A stretch of DNA of 64,000 nt from Gammaproteobacteria bacterium (GTDB taxonomy: Bacteria; Pseudomonadota; Gammaproteobacteria; SZUA-229), in the NCBI GenBank assembly GCA_029881795.1, contig JAOULX010000001.1, forward strand, positions 186,001 to 250,000, given 5' to 3'. Position 1 is the first letter of the stretch; each line of letters begins with the position of its first letter. Under the pieces are notes generated by a model, which saw nothing but the letters and a program-made list of their open reading frames with translations, was not told the DNA's origin and did no database searches. Positions 2,181-20,337 of the stretch are shown in pieces. A program made the position numbers and the translations under genes.

Positions 2181-2224
2181 GATTCAAAAGTCCGTTGTTG
2201 TAAGTGCTGGCTCATTGTTTTTAT

Positions 2225-3682: not shown

Positions 3683-3824
3683 TGGCGACCTGATTGTTGT
3701 AAGGCATATTAGAGTGAAATATACCAGAATTAACAAACGCTTATGTAAAAAGCTGTGTTTATGCTCGGTTAGAAAAGCGCTTTAATGCAGGCATTATATT
3801 TTTTTTGTCAGTTAAAGCTGTTAT

Positions 3825-3963: not shown

Positions 3964-3981
3964 CTATCCCATATGGGATAG
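3964..3981. promoter_or_regulatory. Perfect 18-bp palindrome, distal operator of dsrA
   Basis: CTATCCCATATGGGATAG is a perfect palindrome centred at 3972.5. It is 34 bp (about three helical turns) upstream of the proximal repeat and about -76 relative to the predicted dsr start. The core TCCC-N4-GGGA recurs at 40520-40531, and a CCCC-N4-GGGATA variant occurs at 19204-19217. It lies between two divergent operons, so it could serve either. Confidence 0.6.
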
Positions 3982-5426: not shown

Positions 5427-5449
5427 TTAATTTATTTATTTTTGTATCT

Positions 5450-5475
5450 AAGGTGGCCGCACTGGCGGCTGCCTT
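5450..5475 (+). other. Intercistronic hairpin dsrA-dsrB
   Basis: AAGGTGGCCGC, a 4-nt loop ACTG, then GCGGCTGCCTT: an 11-bp stem with two imperfect pairs and no T-run. It looks like an mRNA-stabilising or processing element rather than a terminator. Confidence 0.5.
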
Positions 5476-5499
5476 ATTCATAAATTTGAGGAAGATACG

Positions 5500-6576: not shown

Positions 6577-6591
6577 GATAGGTTTTTAGAT

Positions 6592-6984
6592 ATGAAATTT
6601 GGTATACAGGTAAATGAAGGTCCTTATACCCATGAGGCTTCTGTAACAGCGATTAACTTTGTTAAGTCGGCTGTTGCAAAAGGCCATGAGGTGTTTCGAG
6701 TGTTCTTCTATCATGATGGTGTTAATAACGGTACTCGTTATGCAACGCCACCGCAGGATGATATTAATATCCAGCAGACATGGTCTAATCTGGCGAAAGA
6801 GCACAACATAGATTTAGTTATCTGTGTTGCAGCTGCTCAGCGTCGTGGCCTGGCTGATGATGGTGAACAAGAACGTAATAAACTTGATGGTAATAACATC
6901 ATGGACGGTTTCCGTATTTCTGGCTTGGGTCAGTTAATCGAAGCTGGCATTGAATGTGACCGTCTGGTAGTTTTCGGCGACTAA
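6592..6984 (+). CDS. dsrE: Sulfurtransferase subunit DsrE
   Basis: 130 residues. DsrE is the active subunit of the DsrE2F2H2 hexamer, which carries sulfur on one cysteine and passes it to DsrC. The conserved cysteine is C78 (IDLVICVAAAQRRG), the same position as in A. vinosum DsrE, and marks this as the oxidiser-type protein and not TusD of tRNA thiolation. It starts 15 bp after dsrB and is cytoplasmic. Confidence 0.96.
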   Translation: MKFGIQVNEGPYTHEASVTAINFVKSAVAKGHEVFRVFFYHDGVNNGTRYATPPQDDINIQQTWSNLAKEHNIDLVICVAAAQRRGLADDGEQERNKLDGNNIMDGFRISGLGQLIEAGIECDRLVVFGD

Positions 6985-6999
6985 AAAAGGGTCTTTGTA

Positions 7000-7407
7000 A
7001 TGTCTAACGTAAAGAAATTTATGTATATCAACAACAAGGCTCCTTACGGCACGATTTACGCGTGGGAGTCTCTGGAAGTTGTTTTGATTGGTGCTGCTTT
7101 TGATCAGGATGTTAGTCTGATGTTCACTGGTGACGGTGTTTATCAGTTAATGAAAGGTCAGGATACTAAAGAAGTTGGCATCAAAAACTTTTCACCAACT
7201 TATGCGGCTTTGGGTGACTACGATATCAACAAGATCTATGTTGAAAAAGAGTCTCTGGATGCACGTGGTTTGACAGTTGATGATCTGATGCACCTGGTTT
7301 GGGAAGATGAAGACGAAGATTGGGCTGAAAAAGACTCAATCAGAGTTGTGACTTCTGCTGAACTGGCTGAAATCCTTGATCAACAAGACGTAGTATTGAG
7401 CTTCTAG
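7000..7407 (+). CDS. dsrF: DsrF subunit of DsrEFH sulfurtransferase
   Basis: 135 residues, DsrE/DsrF-like fold (N-terminal MYINNKAPYGTIYAWESLE, central GDGVYQLMKGQDT). It contains no cysteine, which fits DsrF as a structural subunit of the hexamer; the sulfur-binding cysteines are in DsrE and DsrH. It is 15 bp after dsrE and 10 bp before dsrH, and so co-translated with both. Confidence 0.95.
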   Translation: MSNVKKFMYINNKAPYGTIYAWESLEVVLIGAAFDQDVSLMFTGDGVYQLMKGQDTKEVGIKNFSPTYAALGDYDINKIYVEKESLDARGLTVDDLMHLVWEDEDEDWAEKDSIRVVTSAELAEILDQQDVVLSF

Positions 7408-7417
7408 GAGATTTGAG

Positions 7418-7726
7418 ATGTCTATTTTACACACAGTAAATAAATCGCCTTTAGATCGTACTACTCTGAAGAGTTGTCTGAACCTTGCAGTTAAAGGTGC
7501 TTCAGTTCTTCTGATCGAAGACGGTGTTTATGGTGCAGTATCTGGTGCTGAAAGCACACAGATGGTTCAAGATGCAATGGGCGATGTAGCAGTTTATGTG
7601 CTTGGTCCAGACTTAAAGGCACGTGGTGTTGATGAGTCGCGCTTAATTGACGGCGTTAAAGTTGTTGATTATGACGGTTTTGTTGATCTGACAACAGACA
7701 ATGACACTGTAAGTGCTTGGGTATAA
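7418..7726 (+). CDS. dsrH: DsrH subunit of DsrEFH sulfurtransferase
   Basis: 102 residues, small DsrH/TusB-like protein. The conserved C20 (LKSCLNLAVKGASVLLIEDG) matches the redox-active cysteine reported for A. vinosum DsrH. Together with E and F it forms the ring that hands sulfur to DsrC. The ribosome site is AGGAG just after the dsrF stop. Confidence 0.95.
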   Translation: MSILHTVNKSPLDRTTLKSCLNLAVKGASVLLIEDGVYGAVSGAESTQMVQDAMGDVAVYVLGPDLKARGVDESRLIDGVKVVDYDGFVDLTTDNDTVSAWV

Positions 7727-7769
7727 TTTTTTTAGTATTTAAATTAGCGTTACCGTAGAGGAAATAATC

Positions 7770-8105
7770 ATGGCTGCTATTGAATTAGATGGTAAAAGTT
7801 ACGAAGTTGACGAAGAAGGTTATCTGTTAGATCTGAACCAGTGGGTTCCTGGTCTGGCTGATATCATGGCTAAAGACGAAGATGCTGTTCTGACTGACGC
7901 GCACTGGGAAGTTATTAACTTCTTACGTGAGTACTATGAAGAGTATCAGATTGCTCCTGCAGTACGTGTACTGACTAAAGCGATCGGTAAAAAATTAGGT
8001 AAAGACAAAGGCAACAGCAAGTACCTGTACGAGTTGTTCCCTTACGGTCCTGGTAAGCAAGCATGTAAATATGCGGGTCTGCCAAAGCCAACTGGTTGCG
8101 TATAA
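7770..8105 (+). CDS. dsrC: DsrC, sulfur-carrier substrate protein of DsrAB
   Basis: 111 residues. DsrC carries substrate sulfur as a persulfide or trisulfide between DsrEFH, DsrAB and DsrK. The C-terminal arm has both essential cysteines: C99 (GKQACKYAG) and penultimate C110 (PTGCV), 11 residues apart as in true DsrC. The KYLYELFPYGPGKQ signature is present. GAGGAAAT precedes the ATG. A strong hairpin terminator follows, so dsrC and upstream genes may be made in excess over dsrM onward. Compare the cysteine-less paralogue at 18722. Confidence 0.98.
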   Translation: MAAIELDGKSYEVDEEGYLLDLNQWVPGLADIMAKDEDAVLTDAHWEVINFLREYYEEYQIAPAVRVLTKAIGKKLGKDKGNSKYLYELFPYGPGKQACKYAGLPKPTGCV

Positions 8106-8115
8106 TCAGTTAGGT

Positions 8116-8148
8116 AATGGAGGGGGCTGTTGCCTCCTCCATTTTTAT
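8116..8148 (+). terminator. Terminator/attenuator between dsrC and dsrM
   Basis: Stem AATGGAGG-GGGC, loop TGTT, GCCT-CCTCCATT, about 12 bp with one G-U pair, then TTT and an AT-rich tail. It sits inside the operon, so partial termination is expected, favouring dsrA-dsrC transcripts. Confidence 0.75.
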
Positions 8149-8180
8149 TTGTTTTTTATTTCAAATAGCAAGGTTTAAAC

Positions 8181-8930
8181 ATGTCAGGCTTTATTGCAGC
8201 ATTGTTGTGGGTTGGCTTAGTTGTATTTGTGGGTTTTACAGCGCGTAAAATCAGACAATACTGGAAAACACCTGCACCACTTAAAATACCAACGACTCCT
8301 GCTCCTGTTACACAAACGGGTGTTGTTTTCCGTATGGCACGTGAAGTTGTGCTGTTTGAGAGTTTGTTTAAATCGAATAAATGGATCTGGGTTTTTGGCT
8401 GGATGTTCCATTTAGGTCTGTTACTGGCATTCTTCCGTCACTTGCGTTATGTGGTTAGTCCGGAGAATTTCATGTGGCCAGTGATCAGTAATGTCATCGT
8501 TCAGAGTTTTGGTCAGTATGCTGGCTTCGCGATGGTTGCGGGTTTGTTTGGTTTGCTGGCGCGTCGTATTGTTGTAGAGCGTATTCGTTACATATCGTCT
8601 CCTTCAGATTATTTAATGTTATTGATGCTGATTGTTATCGGTGTCAGTGGTTTAGTGATGAGCTTCGTCTCTCACATTGATGTTGTCCAATTAAAAATGT
8701 TTGTGATGGGTTTATTTGGTTTTGATTTCCAGAACTTACCAGAAAGCGGTGCGCTACTCATTCACCTGCTGTTGGTTGTTGTGTTATTGCTGATCTTTCC
8801 GTTCAGTAAATTATTGCACGCACCGGGTGTGTTCTTTAGTCCGACTCGTAACCAGATTGATAATCCACGTGAGAAACGTCATCTGGCTCCATGGGCTGCT
8901 GAAAAATACAACGATCACGTAGACAAGTAA
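8181..8930 (+). CDS. dsrM: DsrM, cytochrome b membrane subunit of DsrMKJOP
   Basis: 249 residues with about five membrane helices, NarI-like fold. Candidate haem b histidines lie in MFHLGLLLAFFRHLRY and near MSFVSHIDVVQ and LLIHLLLVVV. DsrM pairs with DsrK to exchange electrons between the quinone pool and cytoplasmic DsrC. It starts 75 bp after dsrC, behind the hairpin. The dsrK gene follows 46 bp downstream. Confidence 0.95.
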   Translation: MSGFIAALLWVGLVVFVGFTARKIRQYWKTPAPLKIPTTPAPVTQTGVVFRMAREVVLFESLFKSNKWIWVFGWMFHLGLLLAFFRHLRYVVSPENFMWPVISNVIVQSFGQYAGFAMVAGLFGLLARRIVVERIRYISSPSDYLMLLMLIVIGVSGLVMSFVSHIDVVQLKMFVMGLFGFDFQNLPESGALLIHLLLVVVLLLIFPFSKLLHAPGVFFSPTRNQIDNPREKRHLAPWAAEKYNDHVDK

Positions 8931-8976
8931 TTCTGCGTAATAACTGATAACGATTACTAAATCTAGGAAGTAAGTT

Positions 8977-10512
8977 GTGGCTGATTTCGAAACACCAGAA
9001 ATTAAAGAATTTATAGGCATTCCTGCACTGCAGGAAGGCTCTATGGCGCATAGCTCGCCTTTCATTGCAAAACCAGATCATCAGGAATCGTTAGGTTTTC
9101 CGGGTGAGCTGGTTGAAAACTGGCAACAGGTTGCGCTTGAAAAAATGGATGATCTGCGAACACGTTATCGTTCATTCCAGGTGTTCCTAGATTCTTGTGT
9201 TAAATGCGGTGCCTGTACTGATAAATGTCATTACTTCTTGGGTACTGCTGATCCAAAAAATATGCCGGTTGCGCGTCAGGATTTACTGCGTAAAGTTTAT
9301 CGTCGTTACTTCACTGTTGCAGGTAAGTACTTTCCTAAACTGGTTGGTGCTGCAGATTTAACAGAAGAAGTGTTGGATGAGTGGTATAGCTATTTCCACC
9401 AGTGCTCACAGTGTCGTCGTTGTTCAGTGTTTTGCCCATATGGCATTGATACTGCAGAAATATCAATGGCTGCCCGTGAAATTATGGACGCGGTTGGTAA
9501 GGGTCAGAAATACTGTAACGAAATTATCGGTAAAGTTCACACAATCGGTAACAACTTGGGTCTGCCTGGTAAAGCATTGGCAAATGTTCTTGAAGGTCTT
9601 GAAGAAGATGTTGAGGATGATACCGGTGTTGCAGTTAAATTCCCGCTGGATGTGAAAGGCGCTGATATCTTACTGGTTACACCTTCAGCCGATTTCTTTG
9701 CAGAACCACACATTGATGGTCTGATTGGTTACGCAAAAGTATTCCATGAAACAGGTGCTAGCTGGACATTAAGTACCACTGCGTCAGAAGCCGGTAACTT
9801 CGGTATGTTCATCGGTTCATACGAGAACATGCGTCGTGTTTCTATGCGTATTCGTGATGCTGCTAAAGAGCTAGGTGTTAAACGCATTATCTTTGGTGAG
9901 TGTGGTCATGCATGGCGTATCGCTTACAGCTTCCTCAATACTCTGTGTGGTCCTTTTGATTTCTTAGATCAGAATTATCCAATTCCTCAGCACATCCTTG
10001 AGTACACATGGGGTGAGTTGGAGAAAGGTACTCTACGTATCAATAAAGAAGAAAATGATCACATGACACTGACATTCCACGATTCCTGTAATGTGGCGCG
10101 TGGTTCACGTATGGGTGATTACCCTGGTGGTCAGTTTGATTATCCGCGTAATGTTATTAAAGCAGTATGTAATAACTACGTAGACATGGATCCTAAAACA
10201 ACGAAAGAAGCAACTTTCTGCTGTGGTGGCGGTGGTGGTCTTCTGACTGATGATTTAATGGAAATCCGTGTTAAGGGTGTTCTGCCTCGTGCAACAGCTC
10301 TGAAGAGTGTTGTTGAAAATGAAGGCGTTACCCACATGGCAGCGATTTGTGCAATTTGTAAGAGTCAGTTCACAAAGACGTTACCTTATTACGGTTTCAC
10401 TATGGATCAGATAGTGAGCGTACATCAATTAGTTAGTGAAGCGCTGGTCATGAAAGGTTCTGAGCAAGAAGCAGAGCTTGATGGTACTGACGGCGACGAC
10501 ACCGAAGAATAA
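8977..10512 (+). CDS. dsrK: DsrK, HdrD-like iron-sulfur catalytic subunit
   Basis: 511 residues, GTG start with AGGAAG upstream. Two [4Fe-4S] motifs come first (C74, C77, C80, C84 and C143, C146, C149, C153). Heterodisulfide-reductase-type CCG elements follow: GECGH at C309, C371 (DSCNVARG), C415-C416 (CCGGGGG) and C458/C461. This is the site thought to act on the DsrC trisulfide or disulfide. No signal peptide, so it faces the cytoplasm and is bound to DsrM. The C-terminal tail is acidic. Confidence 0.97.
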   Translation: MADFETPEIKEFIGIPALQEGSMAHSSPFIAKPDHQESLGFPGELVENWQQVALEKMDDLRTRYRSFQVFLDSCVKCGACTDKCHYFLGTADPKNMPVARQDLLRKVYRRYFTVAGKYFPKLVGAADLTEEVLDEWYSYFHQCSQCRRCSVFCPYGIDTAEISMAAREIMDAVGKGQKYCNEIIGKVHTIGNNLGLPGKALANVLEGLEEDVEDDTGVAVKFPLDVKGADILLVTPSADFFAEPHIDGLIGYAKVFHETGASWTLSTTASEAGNFGMFIGSYENMRRVSMRIRDAAKELGVKRIIFGECGHAWRIAYSFLNTLCGPFDFLDQNYPIPQHILEYTWGELEKGTLRINKEENDHMTLTFHDSCNVARGSRMGDYPGGQFDYPRNVIKAVCNNYVDMDPKTTKEATFCCGGGGGLLTDDLMEIRVKGVLPRATALKSVVENEGVTHMAAICAICKSQFTKTLPYYGFTMDQIVSVHQLVSEALVMKGSEQEAELDGTDGDDTEE

Positions 10513-10552
10513 ACATATTATTGTAATATAGATTACATCTGGAGATATACGA

Positions 10553-12508
10553 ATGGCTACTTCTAAAGACGAGATGCAAAACGGTTTAACTTTCCGCCGT
10601 TTTGAAGATGGTGACCACGAATGGGGTTCAATGCATGACAAAATCTTTAATGAGGATACGACATACAAATGCCCTACTTATGTTCACCGTACACCACCTT
10701 GTCAGGGTTCATGCCCTTCTGGTGAAGATATTCGTGGCTGGTTAGATATCGTTCGCGGTATCGAAAAGCCGGTTGGTGATGTGAGCTGGCAGGAATATGC
10801 ATTCCAGCGTTCTACCACTGCTAATCCGTTCCCTGCGATGATGGGTCGTGTTTGTCCAGCTCCTTGCCAGGAAGGTTGTAACCGTAATCAGGTTGAAGAT
10901 TTTGTTGGTATCAACTCGGTTGAGCAATTTATTGGTGATACGGCATTTGCTGAAGGTTTCAAATTTGCAGCGCCTGCATGTGGTGATAAAAAAGTAGCGA
11001 TTATTGGTGGTGGTCCTGCCGGTATGGCAGCAGCGTATCAGTTACGTCTGAAAGGTATTGGTTCTACCATTTTTGATGATCACGCCGAATTGGGTGGCAT
11101 GATGCGTTACGGTATCCCTGGTTACCGTACTCCTCGTGCGCAACTTGATCACGAGTGTAACCGTATCGTTAATATGGGTAACATTGAATTAAAAATGAAC
11201 ACCCGTGTTGGTAAAGACGTTGCTGTTGCTGATCTTGAAAAAGAATACGATGCTGTTTTATGGGCATTAGGTTGTAAGACTGGCCGTGGTTTATTCCTTG
11301 AAGATTTCGAAGCAACGCCAAACTGTGTTACTGCGGTTGATTTCCTTGAGCAGTTTAACAAAGGCGAAATGAAATACACGGCTAACAAAGTATTGTGTGT
11401 TGGTGGTGGTGATACTTCTATCGATGTGGTTTCAGTATCACGTCGTATCGGTACCTTAAAAGATTTACAAGAAAACCCAGAAGATTCAGCAACTGGTGTA
11501 ACTAAGCATGGTGATGTGGCTGATGGCGACAAGAAAGCATGTGATAGCGTTGTATTAACAGCTTTATTCGCACAGGATCAAATGACGGCAGCAGAGCACG
11601 AAGTTCAGGACGCACTGAAAGAAGGTGTGACGATCATGAACGAGGTAATGCCTGTTGAGATCATTAAAGATGCAAACGGTCGTGCAACTGCTTTGAAACT
11701 GGTAGACAGCAAGTTCGAAGGTAATGCACCTGTCGCAGTTGAAGGTGGTAAAGAGTATGTCGTTGAATGTGATCTGATTGTTTCTGCAATCGGTCAGACT
11801 GGTGACATGACAGGTGTTGAAGATTTCGATAACGGTCGCGGCCTGATTGATTCTGACAAGAACTTCCAGGTGCCAGGTAAAGAAGGTCACTTCGTATGTG
11901 GTGATATTATTCGCCCACACCTATTAACGACTGCAATTGGTCAGGCTTCTAAAGCTGCTGACAGCATCGAAGCATTCATCAACAAAGTTGAAATGTCTAA
12001 GCGTCCTAAGGTTGATGTACATCACTTTAGCCTGCAAACCAAGCTTGATGAAGTGGGTAAAACACCATCGCGTTACAATGCCAATGAAGGTGATTTGCGC
12101 GGTACTTCTGAAGCTAAGTTCGCTATCCATAACTACGAAGACCGTTCCGGTTCACAAGTGATCTCAACAGATCAAATGTTCCTTGGTCACTTTACGCATA
12201 CTCCTCGTAACCTGCGTACCGAAGATGTGCCAAATTCTGATCAGGTATTAGGTCATTTCGCAGAGCGTATGAACAGTCTTGATGAGGCTACTGCGCAGGC
12301 AGAAGCTGATCGTTGCATGAGCTGTGGTATGTGTTTTGAGTGTGATAACTGTGTTATCTACTGCCCACAGGACGCCGTCTTTAAAGTTAATAAAGCAGAA
12401 GCGTCAACAGGTCGTTATGTCGATACTGACTATGCAAAATGCGTTGGTTGTCATATCTGTTCTGATGTATGTCCTACTGGTTACATCGACATGGCTCTGG
12501 GCGAATAA
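10553..12508 (+). CDS. dsrL: DsrL, NAD(P)H:acceptor iron-sulfur flavoprotein
   Basis: 651 residues, GltD-like oxidoreductase. An N-terminal cluster domain has C40/C50/C54 and C101, C105, C109. The FAD site is IIGGGPAGMAAA (about 151-160), and a second nucleotide site (VLCVGGGDTSIDVV) lies near 285. The C-terminal ferredoxin part, from C588, has two cluster motifs (CMSCGMCFECDNC and CVGCHICSDVCP). DsrL associates with DsrAB and moves electrons from sulfur oxidation to NAD+. The full C-terminal ferredoxin domain and its presence with rDsrAB fit the oxidiser-type DsrL. It lies between dsrK and dsrJ as in A. vinosum. Confidence 0.97.
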   Translation: MATSKDEMQNGLTFRRFEDGDHEWGSMHDKIFNEDTTYKCPTYVHRTPPCQGSCPSGEDIRGWLDIVRGIEKPVGDVSWQEYAFQRSTTANPFPAMMGRVCPAPCQEGCNRNQVEDFVGINSVEQFIGDTAFAEGFKFAAPACGDKKVAIIGGGPAGMAAAYQLRLKGIGSTIFDDHAELGGMMRYGIPGYRTPRAQLDHECNRIVNMGNIELKMNTRVGKDVAVADLEKEYDAVLWALGCKTGRGLFLEDFEATPNCVTAVDFLEQFNKGEMKYTANKVLCVGGGDTSIDVVSVSRRIGTLKDLQENPEDSATGVTKHGDVADGDKKACDSVVLTALFAQDQMTAAEHEVQDALKEGVTIMNEVMPVEIIKDANGRATALKLVDSKFEGNAPVAVEGGKEYVVECDLIVSAIGQTGDMTGVEDFDNGRGLIDSDKNFQVPGKEGHFVCGDIIRPHLLTTAIGQASKAADSIEAFINKVEMSKRPKVDVHHFSLQTKLDEVGKTPSRYNANEGDLRGTSEAKFAIHNYEDRSGSQVISTDQMFLGHFTHTPRNLRTEDVPNSDQVLGHFAERMNSLDEATAQAEADRCMSCGMCFECDNCVIYCPQDAVFKVNKAEASTGRYVDTDYAKCVGCHICSDVCPTGYIDMALGE

Positions 12509-12551
12509 GCCGGACCTCTGACGACTTAGTAGTGAATTAGTGGAGAATATC

Positions 12552-13037
12552 ATGGTGTCATGGTTTCAAAAAAACCTTCAGAAGTCTATGCTGGCAGTGT
12601 CCGTACTACTGCTAGCTGGTTCTGTAAATGTTAATGCTGAAGTTGCAGCTCCTGTAGTGCCGAAAGGTAAAGGTGAGCAATGCGTTGAGCCAACTGGTGA
12701 AATGCGTAAAAATCACATGGAGATGTTAAAGCATCAGCGCGATGAAACCATGCACAATGGTATTCGTACTAAAAAGCACGCTTTAAAAGAGTGCATCTCT
12801 TGCCATGTTCAAGCTGATGATAAAGGTCAGGTTGCGCGTTTTGGTGAAGATGGTCACTTCTGTAGCTCTTGTCATAACTATGCCGGTGTTAATGTTGACT
12901 GCTTCCAGTGTCATGCTGATCGCCCGCAAGAGTTAATTGGTAAAGGCCACAAAATTAAACCGCATCACACAGCCAACTTCAACGACGCTTCAGTTAATAA
13001 AGAAGCGTTACAGGCTTTGTCGAAGGTATCAAAATGA
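12552..13037 (+). CDS. dsrJ: DsrJ, periplasmic triheme cytochrome c
   Basis: 161 residues from the ATG at 12552, which has GGAG 6 bases upstream. An ATG 12 bases earlier overlaps that site and is less likely. A signal peptide or membrane anchor covers about residues 11-29 (MLAVSVLLLAGSVNVNA). Three haem c motifs follow: CISCH 81-85, CSSCH 104-108, CFQCH 117-121. A separate C44 (EQCVEP) matches the cysteine known to ligate one haem in A. vinosum DsrJ. It is the periplasmic electron carrier of DsrMKJOP. The stop overlaps the dsrO start by 4 bp. Confidence 0.96.
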   Translation: MVSWFQKNLQKSMLAVSVLLLAGSVNVNAEVAAPVVPKGKGEQCVEPTGEMRKNHMEMLKHQRDETMHNGIRTKKHALKECISCHVQADDKGQVARFGEDGHFCSSCHNYAGVNVDCFQCHADRPQELIGKGHKIKPHHTANFNDASVNKEALQALSKVSK

Positions 13038-13771
13038 AAACAGACAATACAACTGATACTTCTAAACGTAAATTTCTAGGTGGTGCAGCAGCAGTCGCTG
13101 GTATCACAATCGCCCCTGGAGTATTGCTGCAAACTGTACAGGCTAAACCGGACGATCAGGCAGTCAGTAACAAGGTTCGCTGGGGCATGCTGATCGATAC
13201 TAATAAATGCGCAGATGGCTGTACTGACTGTGTAACTGCTTGTAATTCAGAGCATGGCTTAGCCGGTCATGATCGTCCAGAAACTGATACGCAGTACATT
13301 CGTAAAGTAACTTTAAAAGACAAGCAAACCGGTCATGTCAAAACATTACCGGTTATGTGTCAGCATTGCGAGACTGCTCCTTGTGCGGATGTTTGTCCGA
13401 CAGGCGCATCGTTCAAACGTGAAGATGGCATTGTGTTGGTCGATAAACATATTTGTATTGGCTGTCGTTATTGCATGATGGCTTGTCCGTATAAAGCGCG
13501 TAGCTTTGTCCATGAAGATGTCTATGATCAGAAAGATCACACTCCACGTGGTAAGGGTACAGTCGAGTCTTGCACCATGTGTGTTCACAAAGTTGATAAA
13601 GGTGAAAACCCGGCTTGTGTAACTGCCTGTAATAAAGAACATAAAGCCATGTACTTTGGTGATCTTAATGACGCAAACAGCGAAATCTCAAAACGCCTTA
13701 AAGAACACGGCGGCAAACAGATTCGTGCGGACTTAGGTCTGAATCCTGGCGTACGTTACCAGGGCGTTTAA
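13034..13771 (+). CDS. dsrO: DsrO, periplasmic four-cluster ferredoxin
   Basis: 245 residues. Cysteine groups for several [4Fe-4S] clusters are visible: CADGCTDCVTAC, CQHCETAPCADVCPTGA, CIGCRYCMMACPYKA and CTMCVHK...CVTAC. The N-terminus looks like a Tat signal but reads SKRKFLGG, so the first arginine of the twin pair is lysine. The hydrophobic stretch is AAAVAGITIAPGVLL, with a likely cut after VQA. DsrO bridges DsrJ and DsrP in the membrane complex. Spacing to dsrP is 24 bp. Confidence 0.96.
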   Translation: MKTDNTTDTSKRKFLGGAAAVAGITIAPGVLLQTVQAKPDDQAVSNKVRWGMLIDTNKCADGCTDCVTACNSEHGLAGHDRPETDTQYIRKVTLKDKQTGHVKTLPVMCQHCETAPCADVCPTGASFKREDGIVLVDKHICIGCRYCMMACPYKARSFVHEDVYDQKDHTPRGKGTVESCTMCVHKVDKGENPACVTACNKEHKAMYFGDLNDANSEISKRLKEHGGKQIRADLGLNPGVRYQGV

Positions 13772-13795
13772 GATAAAAACGAGAGTTGATAGATC

Positions 13796-15004
13796 ATGAA
13801 ATTAATCAGATACGCTTCAATCGATGGAAACAGCAACGGCTACTGGGGCTTAATGGCGTTGTTCGCGGCATTTATACTGGCTGCGCTGGGTTCATCTTAT
13901 TTTATGGAACACAATGGTCACTATGTGACAGGTATGACTAACCAGATTGTCTGGGGCTTACCTCATGTATTTGCTGTATTTTTGATTGTAGCTGCTTCAG
14001 GCGCATTAAATGTTGCCTCAATCGCTTCAGTTTTCAATAAAAAAGCTTATAAGCCTTTAACACGTCTTTCTGCTTTACTAGCGATTGCGCTGTTAATGGG
14101 CGGACTGATTGTTCTGGTACTTGATCTGGGACGTCCTGATCGCTTGATTATTGCAGCAACGATTTATAATTTTAAATCTATCTTTGCCTGGAACATGATT
14201 CTGTATTCTGGTTTTATCGGAATCGTTGGTGTTTATCTGTGGACCATGATGGATGAAACTGTAAACAAATTTAATCGTATTGCCGGTATTTCTGCGTTTG
14301 TCTGGCGCTTGATGTTAACCACAGGTACTGGTTCTATTTTTGGTTTCCTGGTTGCTCGTCAGGGTTATGATGCCGCTATTATGGCTCCAATGTTTATCAT
14401 TATGTCATTTGCATTTGGTCTGGCATTTTTTATTCTGGTTATGTTTGCCACATACAATGGTACGGGGCGTGAATTGGGCGATGCGATTGTAAATCGTATG
14501 CGTAATTTGCTTGGTATTTTCGTCGCAGCGATTCTGTACTTCTTCCTGGTATTCCACTTAACAAATCTTTATGCAACAGAGCATCACGGTGTTGAAGCCT
14601 TTATTCTGCGAGATGGTGGTGTGTTTACAAATCTGTTCTGGATTGGTTCAATCATTATTGGCGGTGTCGTTCCTCTGTTGATGGTTTACGGTCCGTTTTG
14701 CAAAAAATCACGTAAAGCACTGGCTGTAGCCTCTGTACTGGTTATCATCGGTGGTCTGGCATCTATGTACGTTATTATTATTGGTGGTCAGGCATATCCA
14801 TTGCAATTATTCCCCGGCATGGAAGTTAGCAGCTCTTTCTTTGACGGTGTTGTAAATACCTATTCACCAACATTACCTGAGCTGATGTTAGGTCTGGGTG
14901 GTGTTGCTCTGAGTTTAATCATTGTTACTCTGGCTGTTAAAGCATTAGACCTACTGCCAGTTAGCCTGGCTGACTCTGTAGCTGATCCACACCACAAAGA
15001 TTAA
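13796..15004 (+). CDS. dsrP: DsrP, NrfD-family integral membrane subunit
   Basis: 402 residues with about ten membrane helices, NrfD/PsrC family (N-terminal helix after YWGLMALFAAFILAALGSSY; DLGRPDRLIIA is the conserved loop). It is the quinone-interacting subunit of DsrMKJOP. It is the last gene with the strong CGT/GGT codon bias; dsrN and later genes use more mixed codons. Confidence 0.96.
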   Translation: MKLIRYASIDGNSNGYWGLMALFAAFILAALGSSYFMEHNGHYVTGMTNQIVWGLPHVFAVFLIVAASGALNVASIASVFNKKAYKPLTRLSALLAIALLMGGLIVLVLDLGRPDRLIIAATIYNFKSIFAWNMILYSGFIGIVGVYLWTMMDETVNKFNRIAGISAFVWRLMLTTGTGSIFGFLVARQGYDAAIMAPMFIIMSFAFGLAFFILVMFATYNGTGRELGDAIVNRMRNLLGIFVAAILYFFLVFHLTNLYATEHHGVEAFILRDGGVFTNLFWIGSIIIGGVVPLLMVYGPFCKKSRKALAVASVLVIIGGLASMYVIIIGGQAYPLQLFPGMEVSSSFFDGVVNTYSPTLPELMLGLGGVALSLIIVTLAVKALDLLPVSLADSVADPHHKD

Positions 15005-15022
15005 CCTGAATTAGTCTCTGTC

Positions 15023-15049
15023 AGCTGTCGCTAAATCTTAGCGGCAGCT
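15023..15049 (+). other. Intercistronic hairpin dsrP-dsrN
   Basis: Arms AGCTGTCGCTAA and TTAGCGGCAGCT (one G-U pair) around a 3-nt loop, no T-run. It is a possible mRNA stability or processing element at the step from highly to weakly expressed genes. Confidence 0.5.
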
Positions 15050-15082
15050 TCTCTCAATTATCGTGTCCTAAGGTGGTTACAT

Positions 15083-16477
15083 TTGTCCCATCTTCTTATT
15101 TCAGCAGCCCATAAATCATCCGGCAAAACCACGATCAGTATTGGATTGTGTGCCGCTTTGACATCTGTTGGGAAAATTGTTCAGCCGTTTAAAAAAGGAC
15201 CGGATTACATTGACCCGTTGTGGCTTGGCAAAGCGACCGGCAGAGCCTGTCATAATCTTGATTTTTACACGATGGACCGGGATGAAATTAAAACTGTTTT
15301 TGTTGAGCAGTCACAGGCATCAGATCTGCAGCTTATTGAAGGTAATAAGGGTTTATACGATGGGCTTGAGCTCGATGGCAGTAACAGTAATGCCGCGCTA
15401 GCCAGTCTACTCGGTGCGCCGGTTGTGCTCGTTATCGATGCACGAGGAATGACCCGGGGAGTCGCGCCCTTGCTGCTGGGTTATCAGGCCTTCGATCGTG
15501 ATATCAGAATCGGCGGTGTGATCTTGAATCAGGTTGGCGGCTCACGACATGAATCGAAGCTACGAAATGTTATCGAACATTATACGGATATCAAAGTGCT
15601 GGGCGCGGTACACAGAGACGAAAGACTGAATATTGATGAGCGTCATCTCGGACTGATGCCGAGTAACGAATTTGAGCAAGTAACCGAAAAAATACAGTTG
15701 TTATCTGCTGCCGTCAAACAACAGGTTGATCTTGATCAGCTTTGCAATCTGGCAGACTCAGCGATGCCGGTGGAGCCAGATAATGTTACGGCAATTGATG
15801 CGCCCCTGTACGTTAACAAGCTTCGAATTGGTGTTGTTAAAAACGAAGCCTTTGGATTTTATTATCCCGGTGACTTACAGGCGTTTGAACGCTGCGGAGT
15901 GGAGCTGGTTGAAATCGACACTCTTGTTGAACCGGAACTGCCTGAGATTGATGGTTTATTTATTGGTGGCGGCTTTCCAGAAAGCCTGATGCAAGAGCTG
16001 GAAGCTAATCTTACGATGCGTAACAGCATAAAAACGGCGATAGATCAGGGCTTGCCTGCTTATGCTGAGTGTGGCGGGCTGATGTATCTAGCAGAAGAGA
16101 TAAACTGGCACGGTAAACGTGCAAAAATGGCCGGCGTTATCCGTGGCAAGATTACCATGCATAAAAAGCCACAGGGTCGTGGTTATGTTCAACTGCTAGC
16201 TACCGATGACTTTATCTGGCCAATTGAAAACTCGGAAAAAGCACATATGATTAGTGCGCATGAGTTTCATTATTCTTCACTGGATGGTCTGCCTGCTGAT
16301 GCGCGTTATGCCTATGAAGTAAAACGCGGGACCGGTATAACAGGCAAATTTGACGGTTACCAGTATAAAAACCTGCTTGCCTGTTACAGCCACATGCGTG
16401 ATAGCAGGCAAAATCACTGGGTCTCACGATTTGTACAATTTGTAAATAACTGCAAACAGCAGTCTGTTAAACAATGA
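15083..16477 (+). CDS. dsrN: DsrN, siroheme amidase (CbiA/CobB-like)
   Basis: 464 residues, TTG start with AAGGTGG upstream. N-terminal ATP-binding part: SAAHKSSGKTTISIGL P-loop and KKGPDYIDPLW. C-terminal class I glutamine amidotransferase part with nucleophile cysteine in YAECGGLMYL. It is homologous to cobyrinic acid a,c-diamide synthase. In dsr operons it is held to amidate siroheme for DsrAB. The rare TTG start and weaker codon bias fit low expression, as expected for a cofactor enzyme. Confidence 0.95.
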   Translation: MSHLLISAAHKSSGKTTISIGLCAALTSVGKIVQPFKKGPDYIDPLWLGKATGRACHNLDFYTMDRDEIKTVFVEQSQASDLQLIEGNKGLYDGLELDGSNSNAALASLLGAPVVLVIDARGMTRGVAPLLLGYQAFDRDIRIGGVILNQVGGSRHESKLRNVIEHYTDIKVLGAVHRDERLNIDERHLGLMPSNEFEQVTEKIQLLSAAVKQQVDLDQLCNLADSAMPVEPDNVTAIDAPLYVNKLRIGVVKNEAFGFYYPGDLQAFERCGVELVEIDTLVEPELPEIDGLFIGGGFPESLMQELEANLTMRNSIKTAIDQGLPAYAECGGLMYLAEEINWHGKRAKMAGVIRGKITMHKKPQGRGYVQLLATDDFIWPIENSEKAHMISAHEFHYSSLDGLPADARYAYEVKRGTGITGKFDGYQYKNLLACYSHMRDSRQNHWVSRFVQFVNNCKQQSVKQ

Positions 16478-16486
16478 GAGAAAGAC

Positions 16487-16795
16487 ATGATTACGATTAC
16501 AGAAGCAGCAGCCAGTCAGATTAAAGAATCGGCGAAACAGGGCAAGATAGAAGGTCTGGCATTGCGAGTTGCCTGTGCCAAGCAGGCGGATGGCAGCTTG
16601 CATTACGGTATGGGTTTTGATGAAAAAACAGAAGAAGACCAGATCTTTATTTCCAATGATATCGAACTCATCATCGCTCCGGTTAGTCTGACTTTGCTGA
16701 CCGGTACCGTACTTGATTTTGTTGAACTGGAAGAAGGCAAGCCCGACTTTATATTCCAGAACCCGAATGATCCAGATCACCAGCCTGCTCAGTAG
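16487..16795 (+). CDS. dsrR: DsrR, A-type (IscA-like) protein without cluster cysteines
   Basis: 102 residues. It has the IscA/SufA fold signature (ITITEAAASQIKESAKQG; GMGFDEK; SLTLLTGTVLDF). The C-terminal CxC of IscA is missing: the sequence after FIFQNPND has no cysteine. Only C30 is present. A. vinosum DsrR likewise lacks the Fe-S ligands and is needed for normal dsr expression, probably after transcription. It starts 9 bp after dsrN. Confidence 0.93.
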   Translation: MITITEAAASQIKESAKQGKIEGLALRVACAKQADGSLHYGMGFDEKTEEDQIFISNDIELIIAPVSLTLLTGTVLDFVELEEGKPDFIFQNPNDPDHQPAQ

Positions 16796-16813
16796 GTAAA
16801 AACGTAACGCATC

Positions 16814-17782
16814 ATGACGAAAACAGTCACAACAGCGACAGAATTCTCGATGACGAATGAAAACCCGTTCGACCTTGATAATGCCGAGGCTTACCAAAAA
16901 TGGCGTGATCATAAGCTTGCCGGATATCCGCTGTCGTTACAGCAGCTGGTAGTGAAGATTGGGGATATCAGGGCAATCAGTGATCAGGAGCTAAAGGCAC
17001 TTAAGCGCGTCATTCGCCAGCACAATATGGTGGTGTATCAGCTGGCATCAGAGAGTCAGGCCAGTAAGGCCGAGATCAGGCAGTTTGCACGGCTGTTGGG
17101 GCTGGACAGAATCGATAATAATATCTGTTCGGATGAAGATAGCATCACCAGCTTACAGGTTTCAGACAGTGCTCAGAAGCGGATCTATATTCCTTATACT
17201 AATCGGCGCCTAAGCTGGCACGCCGATGGCTATTACAACCCGCTGGATAAACAGATTCGCGGCATGCTACTGCATTGTGTGCAGCCGGCTGTAAAAGGCG
17301 GTGAAAACATGCTGCTGGATCATGAAATGATCTATATCCAGCTGCGTGATGAAAATCCGGACTATATCCGTGCTCTGATGCATCCACAGGCAATGATTAT
17401 TCCGCCTAATAACGAAGGTGAGCAGGGTGATCAAATTCGCGGCGAGCAGGCCGGGCCGGTATTTTCACTTGAAAATGGCACAGCTAATCTCCATATGAGA
17501 TATTCGGCGCGAAGCCGTAATATCATCTGGCGCGATGACGTGAACACTAGCGCTGCAAGGGCTAAAATTACCGACTTATTGGATAGTAGCCCCTATATTT
17601 TGAGATATAGACTCGGCGCTGGTCAGGGTGTAATTTGTAATAATCTGTTGCATAATCGCACCTCTTTTGAAGACAGTGATGCTCAGCATCGGTTATTATA
17701 CCGGGCCCGTTTTTATGATCGGGTGGCGGATACCGCGATTGCAGGCATAATGAATCAGGTAAACGAAAATGTTATATCTTAG
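16814..17782 (+). CDS. TauD/TfdA-family Fe(II)/2-oxoglutarate dioxygenase
   Basis: 322 residues. The iron-binding facial triad is visible as H136-x-D138 (LSWHADGYY) and distal H280 (LLHNRTSFED), with a following arginine suited to 2-oxoglutarate. The family hydroxylates small organic substrates, often sulfonates or carnitine-type compounds. No transporter for such a substrate is next to it. It sits 18 bp after dsrR on the same strand, so it is probably co-transcribed with dsr. It is not part of the textbook dsr operon. Substrate unknown; a modification linked to sulfur chemistry is only a guess. Confidence 0.85.
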   Translation: MTKTVTTATEFSMTNENPFDLDNAEAYQKWRDHKLAGYPLSLQQLVVKIGDIRAISDQELKALKRVIRQHNMVVYQLASESQASKAEIRQFARLLGLDRIDNNICSDEDSITSLQVSDSAQKRIYIPYTNRRLSWHADGYYNPLDKQIRGMLLHCVQPAVKGGENMLLDHEMIYIQLRDENPDYIRALMHPQAMIIPPNNEGEQGDQIRGEQAGPVFSLENGTANLHMRYSARSRNIIWRDDVNTSAARAKITDLLDSSPYILRYRLGAGQGVICNNLLHNRTSFEDSDAQHRLLYRARFYDRVADTAIAGIMNQVNENVIS

Positions 17783-17789
17783 TGAAGTA

Positions 17790-17957
17790 ATGATGAAAAA
17801 CCACGATATGACGTCCTTTGCGGAGCTAAAAGAAGCCCTTAAAGGGGAGGCGCGTCAGGGTCAGATGTTCTTTGAAATGGACGTGAAACCCGGTTTTGAT
17901 GATACGCCGGCAGACTGGCAAGACCAATGTGAAGCCGCCTTCACCAGCAGAGATTAG
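17790..17957 (+). CDS. Small acidic ORF between dioxygenase and Cas6-like gene
   Basis: About 55 residues from one of two adjacent ATGs at 17790/17793, possibly 62 from 17769, overlapping the dioxygenase stop. Rich in acidic residues, with no membrane segment and one cysteine. I do not recognise it. Its stop is one base before the ATG of the Cas6-like gene, so translation of the two is probably coupled. The tight packing supports a real gene, but coding status is less sure than for its neighbours. Confidence 0.5.
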   Translation: MMKNHDMTSFAELKEALKGEARQGQMFFEMDVKPGFDDTPADWQDQCEAAFTSRD

Positions 17958-17958
17958 C

Positions 17959-18675
17959 ATGTTCTGGGATGAGGACGATAATAAAGGCCCTTATCAGGTA
18001 CCAGAAGACGTTGTTGATGTCGGCTTTAAAGTCATTAGCAAAGCCTTACCGCTGGAGCACGCGCACGAGTTATACACAGCGTTGCAGGGTGTATTGCCCT
18101 GGTTAAAAGATGAGGCCTTAATCGGCATACATCAAATTCACGGTGCGGAATCTGGCAATGGCTGGACCCGGCCTGAAGATAGTGACAATGAATTATTACA
18201 TTTGTCACGCAGAGCCCGTTTTTACATACGGACACCGGCGCACAGGCTGGATGAAATTAAGGCTTTAACCGGACAAATATTAGATATCGATGGCCACCGG
18301 CTGGAGCTGGGGTCATCAATTATTAAGCCGCTAAGCACGCAGTCTGAGCAATTTTCACGCTACGTGATTGTTGAGCAAGATGAAGAGCAAGAAGCGGACT
18401 TTCTCAAACGGGTGGTGACAGAGCTTAACCAGTTACTTGAGACCAAGATACGTAAGATTATGTGTGGAAAGCCCCACACGATCAGGCTACCAGACGAGAT
18501 CATCAGCACCCGCAGTATCATGGTGGCGGATCTGGATCCTGAGATTGCTGTGAAGTTACAACAGCAGGGCGTTGGCCGTGGTAGACAATATGGTTGTGGC
18601 CTGTTCTTACCACATAAAGGCATAAAGGCTGTCGGTGAAACGGAAGATAAAACCCATTTTACCGGTGCCCGATAG
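17959..18675 (+). CDS. Cas6/Cmx6-like protein in the dsr operon
   Basis: 238 residues from the ATG at 17959; a longer frame from 17896 would overlap the small ORF. The pattern follows the Cas6 family of the I-MYXAN (Cmx6) type. It has VDVGFKVISKALPLEHAHEL near the start (H34, H36), IGIHQIHG (H58, H61), LDIDGHRLELG in the middle, and a C-terminal glycine-rich loop GVGRGRQYGCG (204-214) that fits GhG-x5-GhG. True Cas6 cuts CRISPR precursor RNA. No repeat array or other cas gene is in the window, and the gene is packed between a dsr-linked dioxygenase and a DsrC paralogue. A recruited RNA-binding or RNA-processing role is inferred. Alternative: a RAMP-fold protein with no nuclease activity. Confidence 0.75.
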   Translation: MFWDEDDNKGPYQVPEDVVDVGFKVISKALPLEHAHELYTALQGVLPWLKDEALIGIHQIHGAESGNGWTRPEDSDNELLHLSRRARFYIRTPAHRLDEIKALTGQILDIDGHRLELGSSIIKPLSTQSEQFSRYVIVEQDEEQEADFLKRVVTELNQLLETKIRKIMCGKPHTIRLPDEIISTRSIMVADLDPEIAVKLQQQGVGRGRQYGCGLFLPHKGIKAVGETEDKTHFTGAR

Positions 18676-18721
18676 AGTTTTTAATTAAATTTGTATTAAC
18701 CATTTAAATCAGAGGTGATAT

Positions 18722-19036
18722 ATGAGCGTTGAAAAAACGGAGAACGGTTATCTAGTAAATGCTACTGACTGGACTAAAGAAATTGCTGAAGAAATCTTTG
18801 CTGAAGAGGGTATAAGCCCGACTCAGGAGCACTGGGATGTTATTGAGTACATGCGAGAGCAGGTTCTGGATGAAGGCGCAGAGCCAAATGAGCGTGGCAT
18901 TATGAAAGCAATGGCGAAGAAATGGGGTAAAAAATTGACCTCAAAGTATATGTACGAGTTATTCCCAATGATGCCATCAAAACAAGGCTTGAAAATTGGT
19001 GGATTACCACAGTCTACTCGTAAGGGCGGTTACTAA
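18722..19036 (+). CDS. Cysteine-less DsrC/TusE paralogue (RspA type)
   Basis: 104 residues. Clear DsrC fold: NGYLVNATDWTKEIAEEI, then SPTQEHWDVIEYMRE, then TSKYMYELFPMMPSKQGLK. Both sulfur-carrying cysteines are replaced: the position of C99 in DsrC is leucine, and the C-terminal TGCV is replaced by STRKGGY. There is no cysteine anywhere. Such forms have been named RspA (regulatory sulfur-related protein) and are thought to act by binding rather than sulfur transfer. DsrC has a helix-turn-helix-like surface, so a regulatory or competitor role is possible. AGAGGTGAT precedes the ATG; it is 46 bp after the Cas6-like gene. Confidence 0.88.
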   Translation: MSVEKTENGYLVNATDWTKEIAEEIFAEEGISPTQEHWDVIEYMREQVLDEGAEPNERGIMKAMAKKWGKKLTSKYMYELFPMMPSKQGLKIGGLPQSTRKGGY

Positions 19037-19045
19037 AACAGGCTC

Positions 19046-19158
19046 TTGAAAAGCCACAAGTAGCGCGATACGGCCTTACTGCCTCAGCGGGTAGCGAGGA
19101 AAGTTCAGCTGATAAAGCTCAATTTAGTTCTGTTTTGTGCTCACTTGCAGCTTTTCAA
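19046..19158 (+). other. Inverted repeat enclosing 81 nt, possible structured RNA
   Basis: Arms at 19046-19061 (TTGAAAAGC, CA, CAAGT) and 19143-19158 (ACTTG, CA, GCTTTTCAA) pair except for two bases, and the enclosed 81 nt contains further short repeats such as CCTC...GAGG. There is no T-run. It may be a 3' UTR structure of the dsr transcript or an RNA gene; no known family recognised. Confidence 0.35.
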
Positions 19159-19201
19159 TAACCTGCTTAACAGTGATAGACAAGGTATCTAATTGGCTCT
19201 A

Positions 19202-19217
19202 TACCCCTATTGGGATA
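19202..19217. promoter_or_regulatory. dsr-like inverted repeat before the small gene
   Basis: TACCCCTATTGGGATA: arms TACCCC and GGGATA around 4 bp, centred at 19209.5. It resembles the palindrome before dsrA. TACCCCT also fits the NarL heptamer TACYYMT. The centre is 30.5 bp before the first base of a perfect TATAAT, the same offset as at dsrA. Confidence 0.6.
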
Positions 19218-19239
19218 AAGGAGCCGCTGATTATTGTGT

Positions 19240-19245
19240 TATAAT
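19240..19245 (+). promoter_or_regulatory. Promoter -10 of the 67-residue protein gene
   Basis: Perfect TATAAT. The -35 position has no recognisable hexamer and abuts the inverted repeat at 19202-19217, so activation by a bound regulator is likely. Confidence 0.6.
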
Positions 19246-19297
19246 CTGCTGATTAGTATCGAATTTAGTTATCCAATCCACGATAAAGGTGATGGAA

Positions 19298-19501
19298 ATG
19301 AGCGACAAGCAAGAAATGATCAAGAAAATGATCGAAATGCAGAAAAAATTCCAACAGTATGAAACTGCGAATGGTGTTGATCCACAAGATTACTTCACAC
19401 CAGAAAGTGGCCATGAACTTGACGGTTACCGTCAGGAATATGCTGACTTAGCAGCAGCAGTTAACGCTGCAGCTCATGCTGAAGTAGGTTCTAAGCCTTA
19501 A
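19298..19501 (+). CDS. Small charged cytoplasmic protein, dsr-linked
   Basis: 67 residues from ATG 19298 (MSDKQEMIKKMIEMQKKFQQ), with AAGGTGA 6 bases upstream. Starts at 19289 or 19292 are possible but would place the ribosome site inside the gene. A helical, lysine/methionine-rich N-terminus is followed by GVDPQDYFTPESGHELDGYR. No cysteine and no membrane segment. I recall similar small proteins in other sulfur oxidisers but know no function. It has its own promoter with a dsr-like repeat and a strong terminator, so it is an abundant single-gene unit likely co-regulated with dsr. Confidence 0.8.
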   Translation: MSDKQEMIKKMIEMQKKFQQYETANGVDPQDYFTPESGHELDGYRQEYADLAAAVNAAAHAEVGSKP

Positions 19502-19524
19502 TCGCAGATTAAGACTGAGACTAC

Positions 19525-19562
19525 AAAAAAGCCGCTGTTGATAAGATCAGAGCGGCTTTTTT
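19525..19562. terminator. Bidirectional terminator
   Basis: AAAAAAGCCGCT, 14-nt loop, AGCGGCTTTTTT. The A-run and T-run allow use from both sides: after the small gene (+) and after the hydroxylase gene at 19663 (-). Confidence 0.85.
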
Positions 19563-19662
19563 GTGTCTGCTGATAAGTCATAAGCGACTTAACAAACCCC
19601 TAGAGTGTGTCTGCAAGTTTTATTCTTGCTGATTTTAAGGCTCTTGCGCGAAATATCTTCAG

Positions 19663-20337
19663 CTAAAGCTCTGACCACATCCGTACCAGATTGATATAAG
19701 CCATATCAACCTTGGCGGTTTCATCACTGTCAGGCTGTGTTTGCATTAAGGATTCGCGAGCGGTGTTCAGGTTATAAAGCAATTCACGTTTAGCAGGATC
19801 ACGAATCATACTCTGGCACCAGGTCACAGCCACCAGCCGTTCGCCGCGGCTAACTTCAGCCACATTATGAAGCGTGCCGGAAGGGTAGAGAATGGCACTG
19901 CCGGCAGCGAGTTTAAATGCCTGCTTACCAAAACTGGTATTAATTGTCAGCTCACCACCGTCATACTGATCGGGCTCATTTAAAAAAACGGTAATCGATA
20001 CATCGGTGCGATAGCTGGCCCCGGCTGGCCCCATGATAGGGTCATCGATATGATCGCCATAGGCCATGCCGGCACCATAGCGTGCGTAAAAAGCGGTTGC
20101 CACCCGGTGTGGGAAGGCGGCATTTTGGTAGCGCTTATTTTGAACCAATGAACCCATCACAATATTATTCAGCTGGTTCAGCATGCGGTCGTTTTGAGAC
20201 AGTTCCTGATTGTTTTTCACGCGTTGGGCGTGTTTGCCGGCAGACAGTTGTCCATTGATAAAAGTGGACTGATCGAGAATCTTGCGAACATGCTCCAGCT
20301 GGGCTTTATTCAGTACATCAGGAATGGTTAATAACAT
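19663..20337 (-). CDS. Fe2+-dependent PKHD-type hydroxylase (PiuC/YbiX family)
   Basis: 224 residues, full length for the family. Iron ligands H-x-D in AYGDHIDDPIMGP and distal histidine in LYPSGTLHNVAEV, with the later arginine of GERLVAVTW for 2-oxoglutarate. C-terminal YLVRMWSEL-like tail (YINLVRMWSEL). PiuC/YbiX proteins are tied to iron uptake in other bacteria, often beside TonB receptors; none is present here. Single-gene leftward unit between two terminator/promoter regions. Confidence 0.9.
   Translation of the reverse strand: MLLTIPDVLNKAQLEHVRKILDQSTFINGQLSAGKHAQRVKNNQELSQNDRMLNQLNNIVMGSLVQNKRYQNAAFPHRVATAFYARYGAGMAYGDHIDDPIMGPAGASYRTDVSITVFLNEPDQYDGGELTINTSFGKQAFKLAAGSAILYPSGTLHNVAEVSRGERLVAVTWCQSMIRDPAKRELLYNLNTARESLMQTQPDSDETAKVDMAYINLVRMWSEL

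Follow-up and report, generated by a model that had tools for sequence, protein, structure and literature searches.

In sediments, in oxygen minimum zones and in symbioses, much of the oxidation of sulfur is driven by the reverse Dsr pathway, whose control is, to our knowledge, poorly known. In the window analysed here, a stretch of 64,000 nucleotides of gammaproteobacterial DNA, a dsr operon is followed by a short block of genes, the last of which encodes a DsrC-family protein devoid of cysteine, with a Cas6-like gene (Cas6L) immediately before it. The locus raises the question of what a DsrC paralogue without the sulfur-binding residues may do beside a Dsr pathway, and what a protein of the Cas6 type may have to do with it.

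The rspA-type gene and its family signature

The open reading frame starts with ATG, ends with TAA, and encodes a protein of 104 aa with no Cys. The protein matches the DsrC profiles PF04358 of Pfam (E-value, 1.4 × 10−27; 96.6 bits, cut-off 24.9) and TIGR03342 (88.2 bits, cut-off 53.5), and the closest solved sequence is that of DsrC from A. vinosum (1yx3). An AlphaFold2 model built from 41 relatives (mean pLDDT 89.4) superimposes on 1yx3 with a Z-score of 15.8 (1.9 Å, 102 residues aligned), while residues 102–104 of the tail have a pLDDT below 50. Based on the curated profile cut-offs and the DsrC fold, the protein belongs to the DsrC/TusE/DsvC superfamily. Profiles, superposition and translation agree with the sequence-only reading of this DNA, in which the DsrC fold and the KYMYELFPMMPSKQ arm were said to be kept and Cys to be absent. 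The same reading placed the gene at the end of the dsr operon, and it indeed closes a series of genes on one strand, dsrABEFHCMKLJOPNR–TauD–Cas6L–rspA-type gene (Table 1), in which the names dsrA, B, E, F, H, M, K, L, J, O and P are presumptive, being given from gene order and known family features. The spacer between Cas6L and the rspA-type gene is 46 nt long and contains no strong hairpin.

Table 1. Features of the window, in order of position
Feature	Position	Strand	Evidence or remark
NarL-type response regulator and GAF-type histidine kinase genes	1527–3736	−	divergent from dsrA; families judged by eye
Palindrome TATCCCATATGGGATA, ~205 nt upstream of dsrA	3965–3980	.	in 23/35 dsrA upstream regions
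dsrABEFHCMKLJOPNR, dsr operon preceding the TauD/Cas6L/rspA block	4170–16795	+	profiles, gene order, homology
Hairpin with T run between dsrC and dsrM	8116–8143	+	
TauD/TfdA-type Fe(II)/2-oxoglutarate dioxygenase	16814–17782	+	PF02668, 3.3 × 10−18; 36/45 relative loci
Cas6L, Cas6-like gene, 259 aa	17896–18675	+	PF09559, TIGR02807, Cas6 fold, alignment
RspA-type DsrC paralogue	18722–19036	+	104 aa, Cys-free, C-terminus RKGGY, Lys at CysB position
Codons of the invariant tail R100-K101-G102-G103-Y104	19019–19033	+	invariant in 41/41 rows
Palindrome TACCCCTATTGGGATA upstream of sm70	19202–19217	.	like-pattern site ≤170 nt from sm70 in 11/36 relative loci
sm70, conserved 70-aa gene downstream of rspA	19289–19501	+	no family match; 36/45 relative loci
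PKHD-type Fe(II)/2-oxoglutarate hydroxylase (YbiX-like)	19663–20337	−	faces the block; conserved beside it in many relatives

To describe the family, relatives were taken from 45 Cas6-like loci (45 of the 46 matches outside the own genome; a contig-end fragment of G043 was omitted) and from loci L087–L170. After removal of two weak fragments (L123 and L148), 118 RspA-type rows remained, corresponding to 101 distinct C-terminal 95-mers. As many as 97 of these end in RKGGY and three in GKGGY, and one is cut by a contig end; a relative found later (L199) ends in GKAGY. The name RspA-type, which we apply to this KGGY clade, is taken from the literature. The columns of the two DsrC cysteines were counted on the same random part of all rows that served for the tree described below. 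CysB is Cys in all 19 DsrC rows and Lys in all 33 RspA-type rows, whereas CysA is Cys in 19/19 DsrC rows and in 1/33 RspA-type rows. With Leu at CysA and Lys at CysB, the window protein has neither of the residues that mark DsrC proper, and it differs at CysB from TusE as well, since the E. coli protein has Cys where Lys is found here. That the protein cannot carry sulfur as DsrC does, as the earlier reading held, is thus supported by its sequence, both cysteines being replaced.

The absence of Cys as such proved less telling. Among the 101 distinct relatives, 65 are Cys-free in this region, while 30 contain a single Cys in a new location, −10 from the C-terminus. This site thus varies within the family, the lack of Cys in the window protein being one of its states, and Cys-freeness was rejected as a hallmark of the family. 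The epithet "cysteine-less" is accurate for the window protein and misplaces the emphasis for its relatives. Judging from the alignments, the RspA-type group is diagnosed by a Lys in the place of CysB with GGY after it, rather than by the lack of Cys. A sequencing error that masks Cys codons was also considered and is very unlikely, because L038, the relative closest to the window protein (95% identical), has no Cys either, the dN/dS ratio between the two genes is ~0.013 (with dS near saturation), and the CysB column holds Lys in each of the 33 relatives. The RspA-type clade is under purifying selection.

A phylogeny of the kind proposed in the sequence-only reading separates the RspA-type rows from DsrC. 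In this tree, built on 57 rows, they lie on one side of one branch (support 97/82), with a single label change, the tree resting on just 113 columns and having several long branches. The genome of the window encodes other members of the DsrC family. One of them (L085, G000:C10:283656-283934, outside the window) has a Cys-free DsrC part and the tail KGEH, and in three further paralogues CysA, CysB or both are retained.

The Cas6-like neighbour and the distribution of both genes

Cas6L matches PF09559 (188 bits) and TIGR02807 (117.5 bits, cut-off 98.85). Its model (pLDDT 87.2) superimposes on Cas6 of a type I-B CAST (8fcj_B) with a Z-score of 24.1 (2.2 Å, 198 residues), the top match among the Cas6 structures listed. 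Residue H55 and a glycine-rich loop (G227, G233 and G235) are invariant in 33 rows; H55 aligns with a His of Synechococcus Cmx6, and 8fcj_B has Asn at this position. In Cas6 enzymes, a His in this part of the protein serves in catalysis. Profile, fold, glycine-rich loop and conserved His of a Cas6 are therefore all found in Cas6L. Cas6 families are usually CRISPR genes, and it was asked whether Cas6L works with a CRISPR-Cas locus, as judged on Cas1. No Cas1 was found in the genome of the window, and in a sample of 274 genomes Cas1 occurs in 42 of the 91 genomes with Cas6L (49 lack it) versus 62 of the 183 without (p = 0.064). Being absent from the own genome and untied to Cas6L in the sample, Cas1 speaks against Cas6L as a member of a CRISPR locus, and this assignment was rejected. 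Cas6L most likely works outside CRISPR, as a putative RNA binder or cutter.

The sample just mentioned represents the class Gammaproteobacteria and was searched with profiles for Cas6L and the RspA-type gene, and also for dsrA and Cas1. RspA-type genes were called by a score gap (at least 118 bits with the tail matched versus at most 111 bits without it), and a contig-end fragment in G163 was counted in. Cas6L was found in 91 genomes, dsrA in 94 and the RspA-type gene in 84. Cas6L and dsrA occur together in 87 genomes (Cas6L alone in 4, dsrA alone in 7; Fisher p = 1.9 × 10−57), and Cas6L and the RspA-type gene in 80 (Cas6L without the latter in 11, the reverse in 4; Fisher p = 1.9 × 10−51), both p-values overstating independence because the genomes are related. 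All three are present in 77 of the 274 genomes, and 176 have none of them; counted by genus, Cas6L is found in 72/222 and dsrA in 74/222. The RspA-type gene and Cas6L are at most 1.7 kb apart in 69 of the 80 genomes with both, and further apart or on different contigs in the other 11, so their co-occurrence is not merely linkage. There are exceptions: no RspA-type match was obtained in 11/91 Cas6L genomes, where diverged forms, which score no better than DsrC, may have been missed, and an RspA-type gene was read without a Cas6L match in G132, G259 and G263, G163 having the contig-end fragment only. Three reduced genomes of 1.0–1.1 Mb (G092, G194 and G306) retain dsrA, Cas6L and the RspA-type gene and have no Cas1 match. 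The linkage with the Cas6-like gene, which had been called notable, is strongly supported by these counts and extended by them, as Cas6L, the RspA-type gene and dsrA form one co-occurring set.

Near the 45 relative Cas6-like loci, an rspA-type ORF is found in 40, and TauD and sm70 in 36 each. In a set of 80 named loci, which overlaps with the 45, the corresponding figures are 75/80, 70/80 and 60/80, and dsrA lies in the same stretch in 63/80. The locus is also present in Thiothrix lacustris, Thiothrix fructosivorans and Thiohalobacter thiocyanaticus. In three distant class members (L167–L169), a protein of 71–84 aa precedes Cas6L in two loci, and a protein of unknown kind (164–203 aa) follows RspA in two; the RspA of L169 keeps CysA and has Lys at CysB.

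A phylum-wide sample of 299 genomes, 52 of them with dsrA, widens this picture. PF09559 was found in four genomes, that of the window and three others, all of which have dsrA and an adjoining RspA-type gene. The RspA profile was matched to its end in nine of the 52 dsrA genomes, and all nine tails read [R/G]KGGY. Besides the four PF09559 genomes, these are five genomes from outside the class (G416, G503, G543, G555 and G601), in which no Cas6-like gene was found with PF09559 or a custom profile. Their tails are RKGGY in four cases and GKGGY in G601, and the neighbours of the gene are mixed, with dsr genes nearby only in G503. The KGGY protein thus reaches further than Cas6L, and the idea of an inseparable RspA–Cas6L pair was rejected on account of these five genomes and of G132, G259 and G263. 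The identity of dsrA to that of the window is 58–100% in the nine KGGY genomes and 45–58% in the other 43. Most of the latter have a dsrE-like gene, and they could not be sorted into oxidative and reductive by dsrE, so the term "oxidative-type" rests here on similarity to the dsrA of the window. With this meaning of the term, the window protein belongs, as far as tree and distribution indicate, to a separate clade of the DsrC family whose members are inherited together with oxidative-type Dsr. Beyond the class, the KGGY protein, as judged by these profile matches, follows one kind of dsrA, and Cas6L is a class-level addition.

Surroundings of the block and possible functions

Several neighbouring features bear on function. 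The HxD motif and the distal His of TauD are invariant or nearly so in the relatives. The relatives of sm70 are 67–70 aa long and follow rspA, and no Pfam or NCBIfam match was obtained for sm70. A palindrome TATCCC-N4-GGGATA is found in 23 of 35 dsrA upstream regions, versus 0.0003 expected per region after base shuffling. The palindromes at dsrA and sm70 may be sites of the NarL type, with its 7-2-7 layout, or else operators of the CsoR type. In most relatives, TauD–Cas6L–rspA reads away from dsrA over the palindrome-bearing spacer; because the two operons diverge across the same spacer, they are probably under common control. The NarL-like regulator and the histidine kinase encoded next to dsrA are candidates for the control of dsr.

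A strong local hairpin was found in 24 of the 25 dsrC–dsrM gaps tested and is likely a partial terminator, which would let dsrC exceed the later genes; since it is terminator-like, it was not taken as a target of Cas6L. The spacer from rspA to sm70 was also examined for a conserved RNA element. Inverted repeats right after the rspA stop looked like a candidate, which was rejected, as they vary by locus, are absent in many and resemble small mobile palindromes. Folding of the aligned intergenic regions of the block gave only trivial helices of 3–4 bp and no covarying RNA motif, and a scan of positions 14900–19700 for promoter and terminator consensus gave promoter counts not far from those of shuffled sequences and nothing usable.

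The favoured reading, shared with the sequence-only one, is that the RspA-type protein is a putative regulator or a putative competitor for the partners of DsrC. In its more definite form, in which the window protein is a sulfur-blind DsrC mimic whose tail would dock on a Dsr partner and so tune sulfur oxidation, we consider it about evenly balanced between right and wrong. The DsrC body and a flexible C-terminal arm are kept, and CysB is replaced with an invariant Lys followed by Gly-Gly-Tyr. Because the DsrC body and arm are retained, with Lys at the sulfur position, the protein should still fit DsrC partners without joining in sulfur transfer. The KGGY tail would enter the pocket of such a partner (DsrAB, DsrK, DsrEFH or another), and the docked protein would gate or report sulfur flow. 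According to a passage of one study, the interaction of DsrC with DsrEFH is strictly dependent on DsrC-Cys111, i.e., CysB (PMC3397948), so DsrE is perhaps a poor partner for the RspA-type protein and another one is likelier. In Gammaproteobacteria, the protein would be coupled to a domesticated Cas6L that adds an RNA arm, and Cas6L, to judge from its conserved Cas6 residues, would bind or cut an RNA.

RspA and Cas6L might form an RNA-level switch, in which RspA docks on Cas6L or senses the state of Dsr and thereby controls the cleavage of hairpins in dsr or other transcripts. Their adjacency in 69 of 80 genomes, on the same strand in the loci read, is in accord with this, as are the Cas6 fold of Cas6L (Z 24.1), its G-rich loop, the candidate catalytic His that it shares with Synechococcus Cmx6, and the hairpin after dsrC in 24/25 loci. 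The hairpin of the window, however, has a T run and looks like a standard terminator, the block yielded no covarying RNA motif, and all five non-class KGGY genomes are without Cas6L, so a joint machine is not the general mechanism; we regard the switch as unlikely. It is improbable, too, that RspA regulates dsr by binding DNA, its helical DsrC body reading the dsrA upstream palindrome in the manner of a winged helix. The palindrome itself (23/35 regions) and a structural resemblance, albeit weak (Z 5.9), to PerR and other winged-helix regulators would suit such a role, and a passage of PMC7787665 ascribes to DsrC a putative role in the regulation of transcription. A Z-score below 8, on the other hand, falls within the range of common arrangements. 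Immediately upstream of dsrA, a NarL-type response regulator and a histidine kinase are encoded, and the palindrome has the 7-2-7 layout of NarL sites, so another protein is the better candidate for this site.

The invariance of the tail Lys and of the GGY after it would also be expected of a modification site, where the neighbouring TauD-type dioxygenase would hydroxylate the tail in an oxygen-linked switch. TauD stands beside the pair in 36/45 relative loci, and its closest NCBIfam models describe dioxygenases of trimethylaminoethylphosphonate, gamma-butyrobetaine and trimethyllysine; these matches, though, lie far below the models' cut-offs, which leaves the substrate assignment equally far below them, and in none of the five loci read from outside the class was a TauD match found close to the KGGY gene, making this reading a long shot. 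Least credible of all is a decaying dsrC duplicate beside a CRISPR leftover, linked by accident of descent. Both sulfur cysteines are gone and Cas6 families usually belong to CRISPR, but a dN/dS of ~0.013, an invariant tail, co-occurrence over ~70 genera, the lack of Cas1 in the genome of the window and retention in genomes of 1.0–1.1 Mb are hardly what decay would leave. Pseudogene and chance linkage were accordingly rejected on the dN/dS ratio, the conservation of the tail and the co-occurrence in 274 genomes.

Returning to the favoured reading of a regulator or competitor for DsrC partners, RspA-type proteins and Cas6L without visible CRISPR point to a putative new layer of control over sulfur oxidation. 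A broader proposal may be formulated, tentatively and with more doubt than confidence: that gammaproteobacterial Dsr sulfur oxidisers recruited a Cas6-type RNA endonuclease from CRISPR as a permanent component of the pathway, that it is steered by a DsrC mimic blind to sulfur, which senses the state of Dsr through its Lys-Gly-Gly-Tyr tail, and that phages can carry this post-transcriptional layer too. If true, a Cas protein would have turned into a metabolic gene throughout a whole class. The near-obligate pair of a DsrC without sulfur cysteine and a Cas6 without CRISPR provides named targets for deletion in the study of dsr control, and the labels "sulfur relay protein" and "CRISPR-associated" are misleading for RspA-type proteins and Cas6L, respectively.

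Comparison with known proteins

Venceslau and colleagues reportedly applied the name RspA, "regulatory sulfur-related", in 2014 to Cys-less DsrC-like proteins, and Cys-less relatives of DsrC are an already known group. The window protein is DsrC-like, is without the sulfur cysteines and agrees with this definition; its likeness to RspA was judged on these two traits. Phage forms without cysteine motifs are in print as well: as passages of PMC8190135 state, some DsrC-like proteins of sulfur phages are without one or both cysteine motifs, five having neither, and such proteins are also treated in passages of PMC4164917. They resemble RspA-type proteins in missing these motifs, and those passages make no mention of a KGGY tail. 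In our material, the phage contig L170 (IMGVR_UViG_3300032087_002997) encodes an RspA-type DsrC with an RKGGY tail (5971–6312, + strand) together with a Mom-like protein, an endonuclease and other PHROG families, and this protein adjoins that of the 1.1 Mb genome G092 in the tree. Two scans of the viral collection revealed no KGGY protein beyond it. The KGGY signature, a link between Cas6 and dsrC, and the near-equality of Cas6L and dsrA were not found in the open-licence literature searched.

Compared with DsrC of A. vinosum (1yx3) and D. vulgaris (2v4j_C), the window protein shares the profile, the fold (Z 15.8 and 14.8, respectively), the C-terminal arm and the linkage to dsr genes, but it has both redox cysteines replaced and belongs to a separate clade, and the tail of DsrC is two residues shorter than the [R/G]KGGY tail. 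TusE is of the same superfamily, and the window protein is 40% identical to that of E. coli (tblastn); unlike the RspA-type proteins, TusE keeps CysB, and the KGGY type tracks dsrA. As for Cas6L, the Cas6 of the type I-B CAST (8fcj_B) is similar in fold, profile and glycine-rich loop, with Asn in place of His. The Cmx6 of a type I CRISPR system, which is encoded in a real cas locus on a Synechococcus plasmid, shares the profile, the glycine-rich loop and the His with Cas6L at 24% identity, whereas the neighbours of Cas6L are dsr genes, not cas genes.
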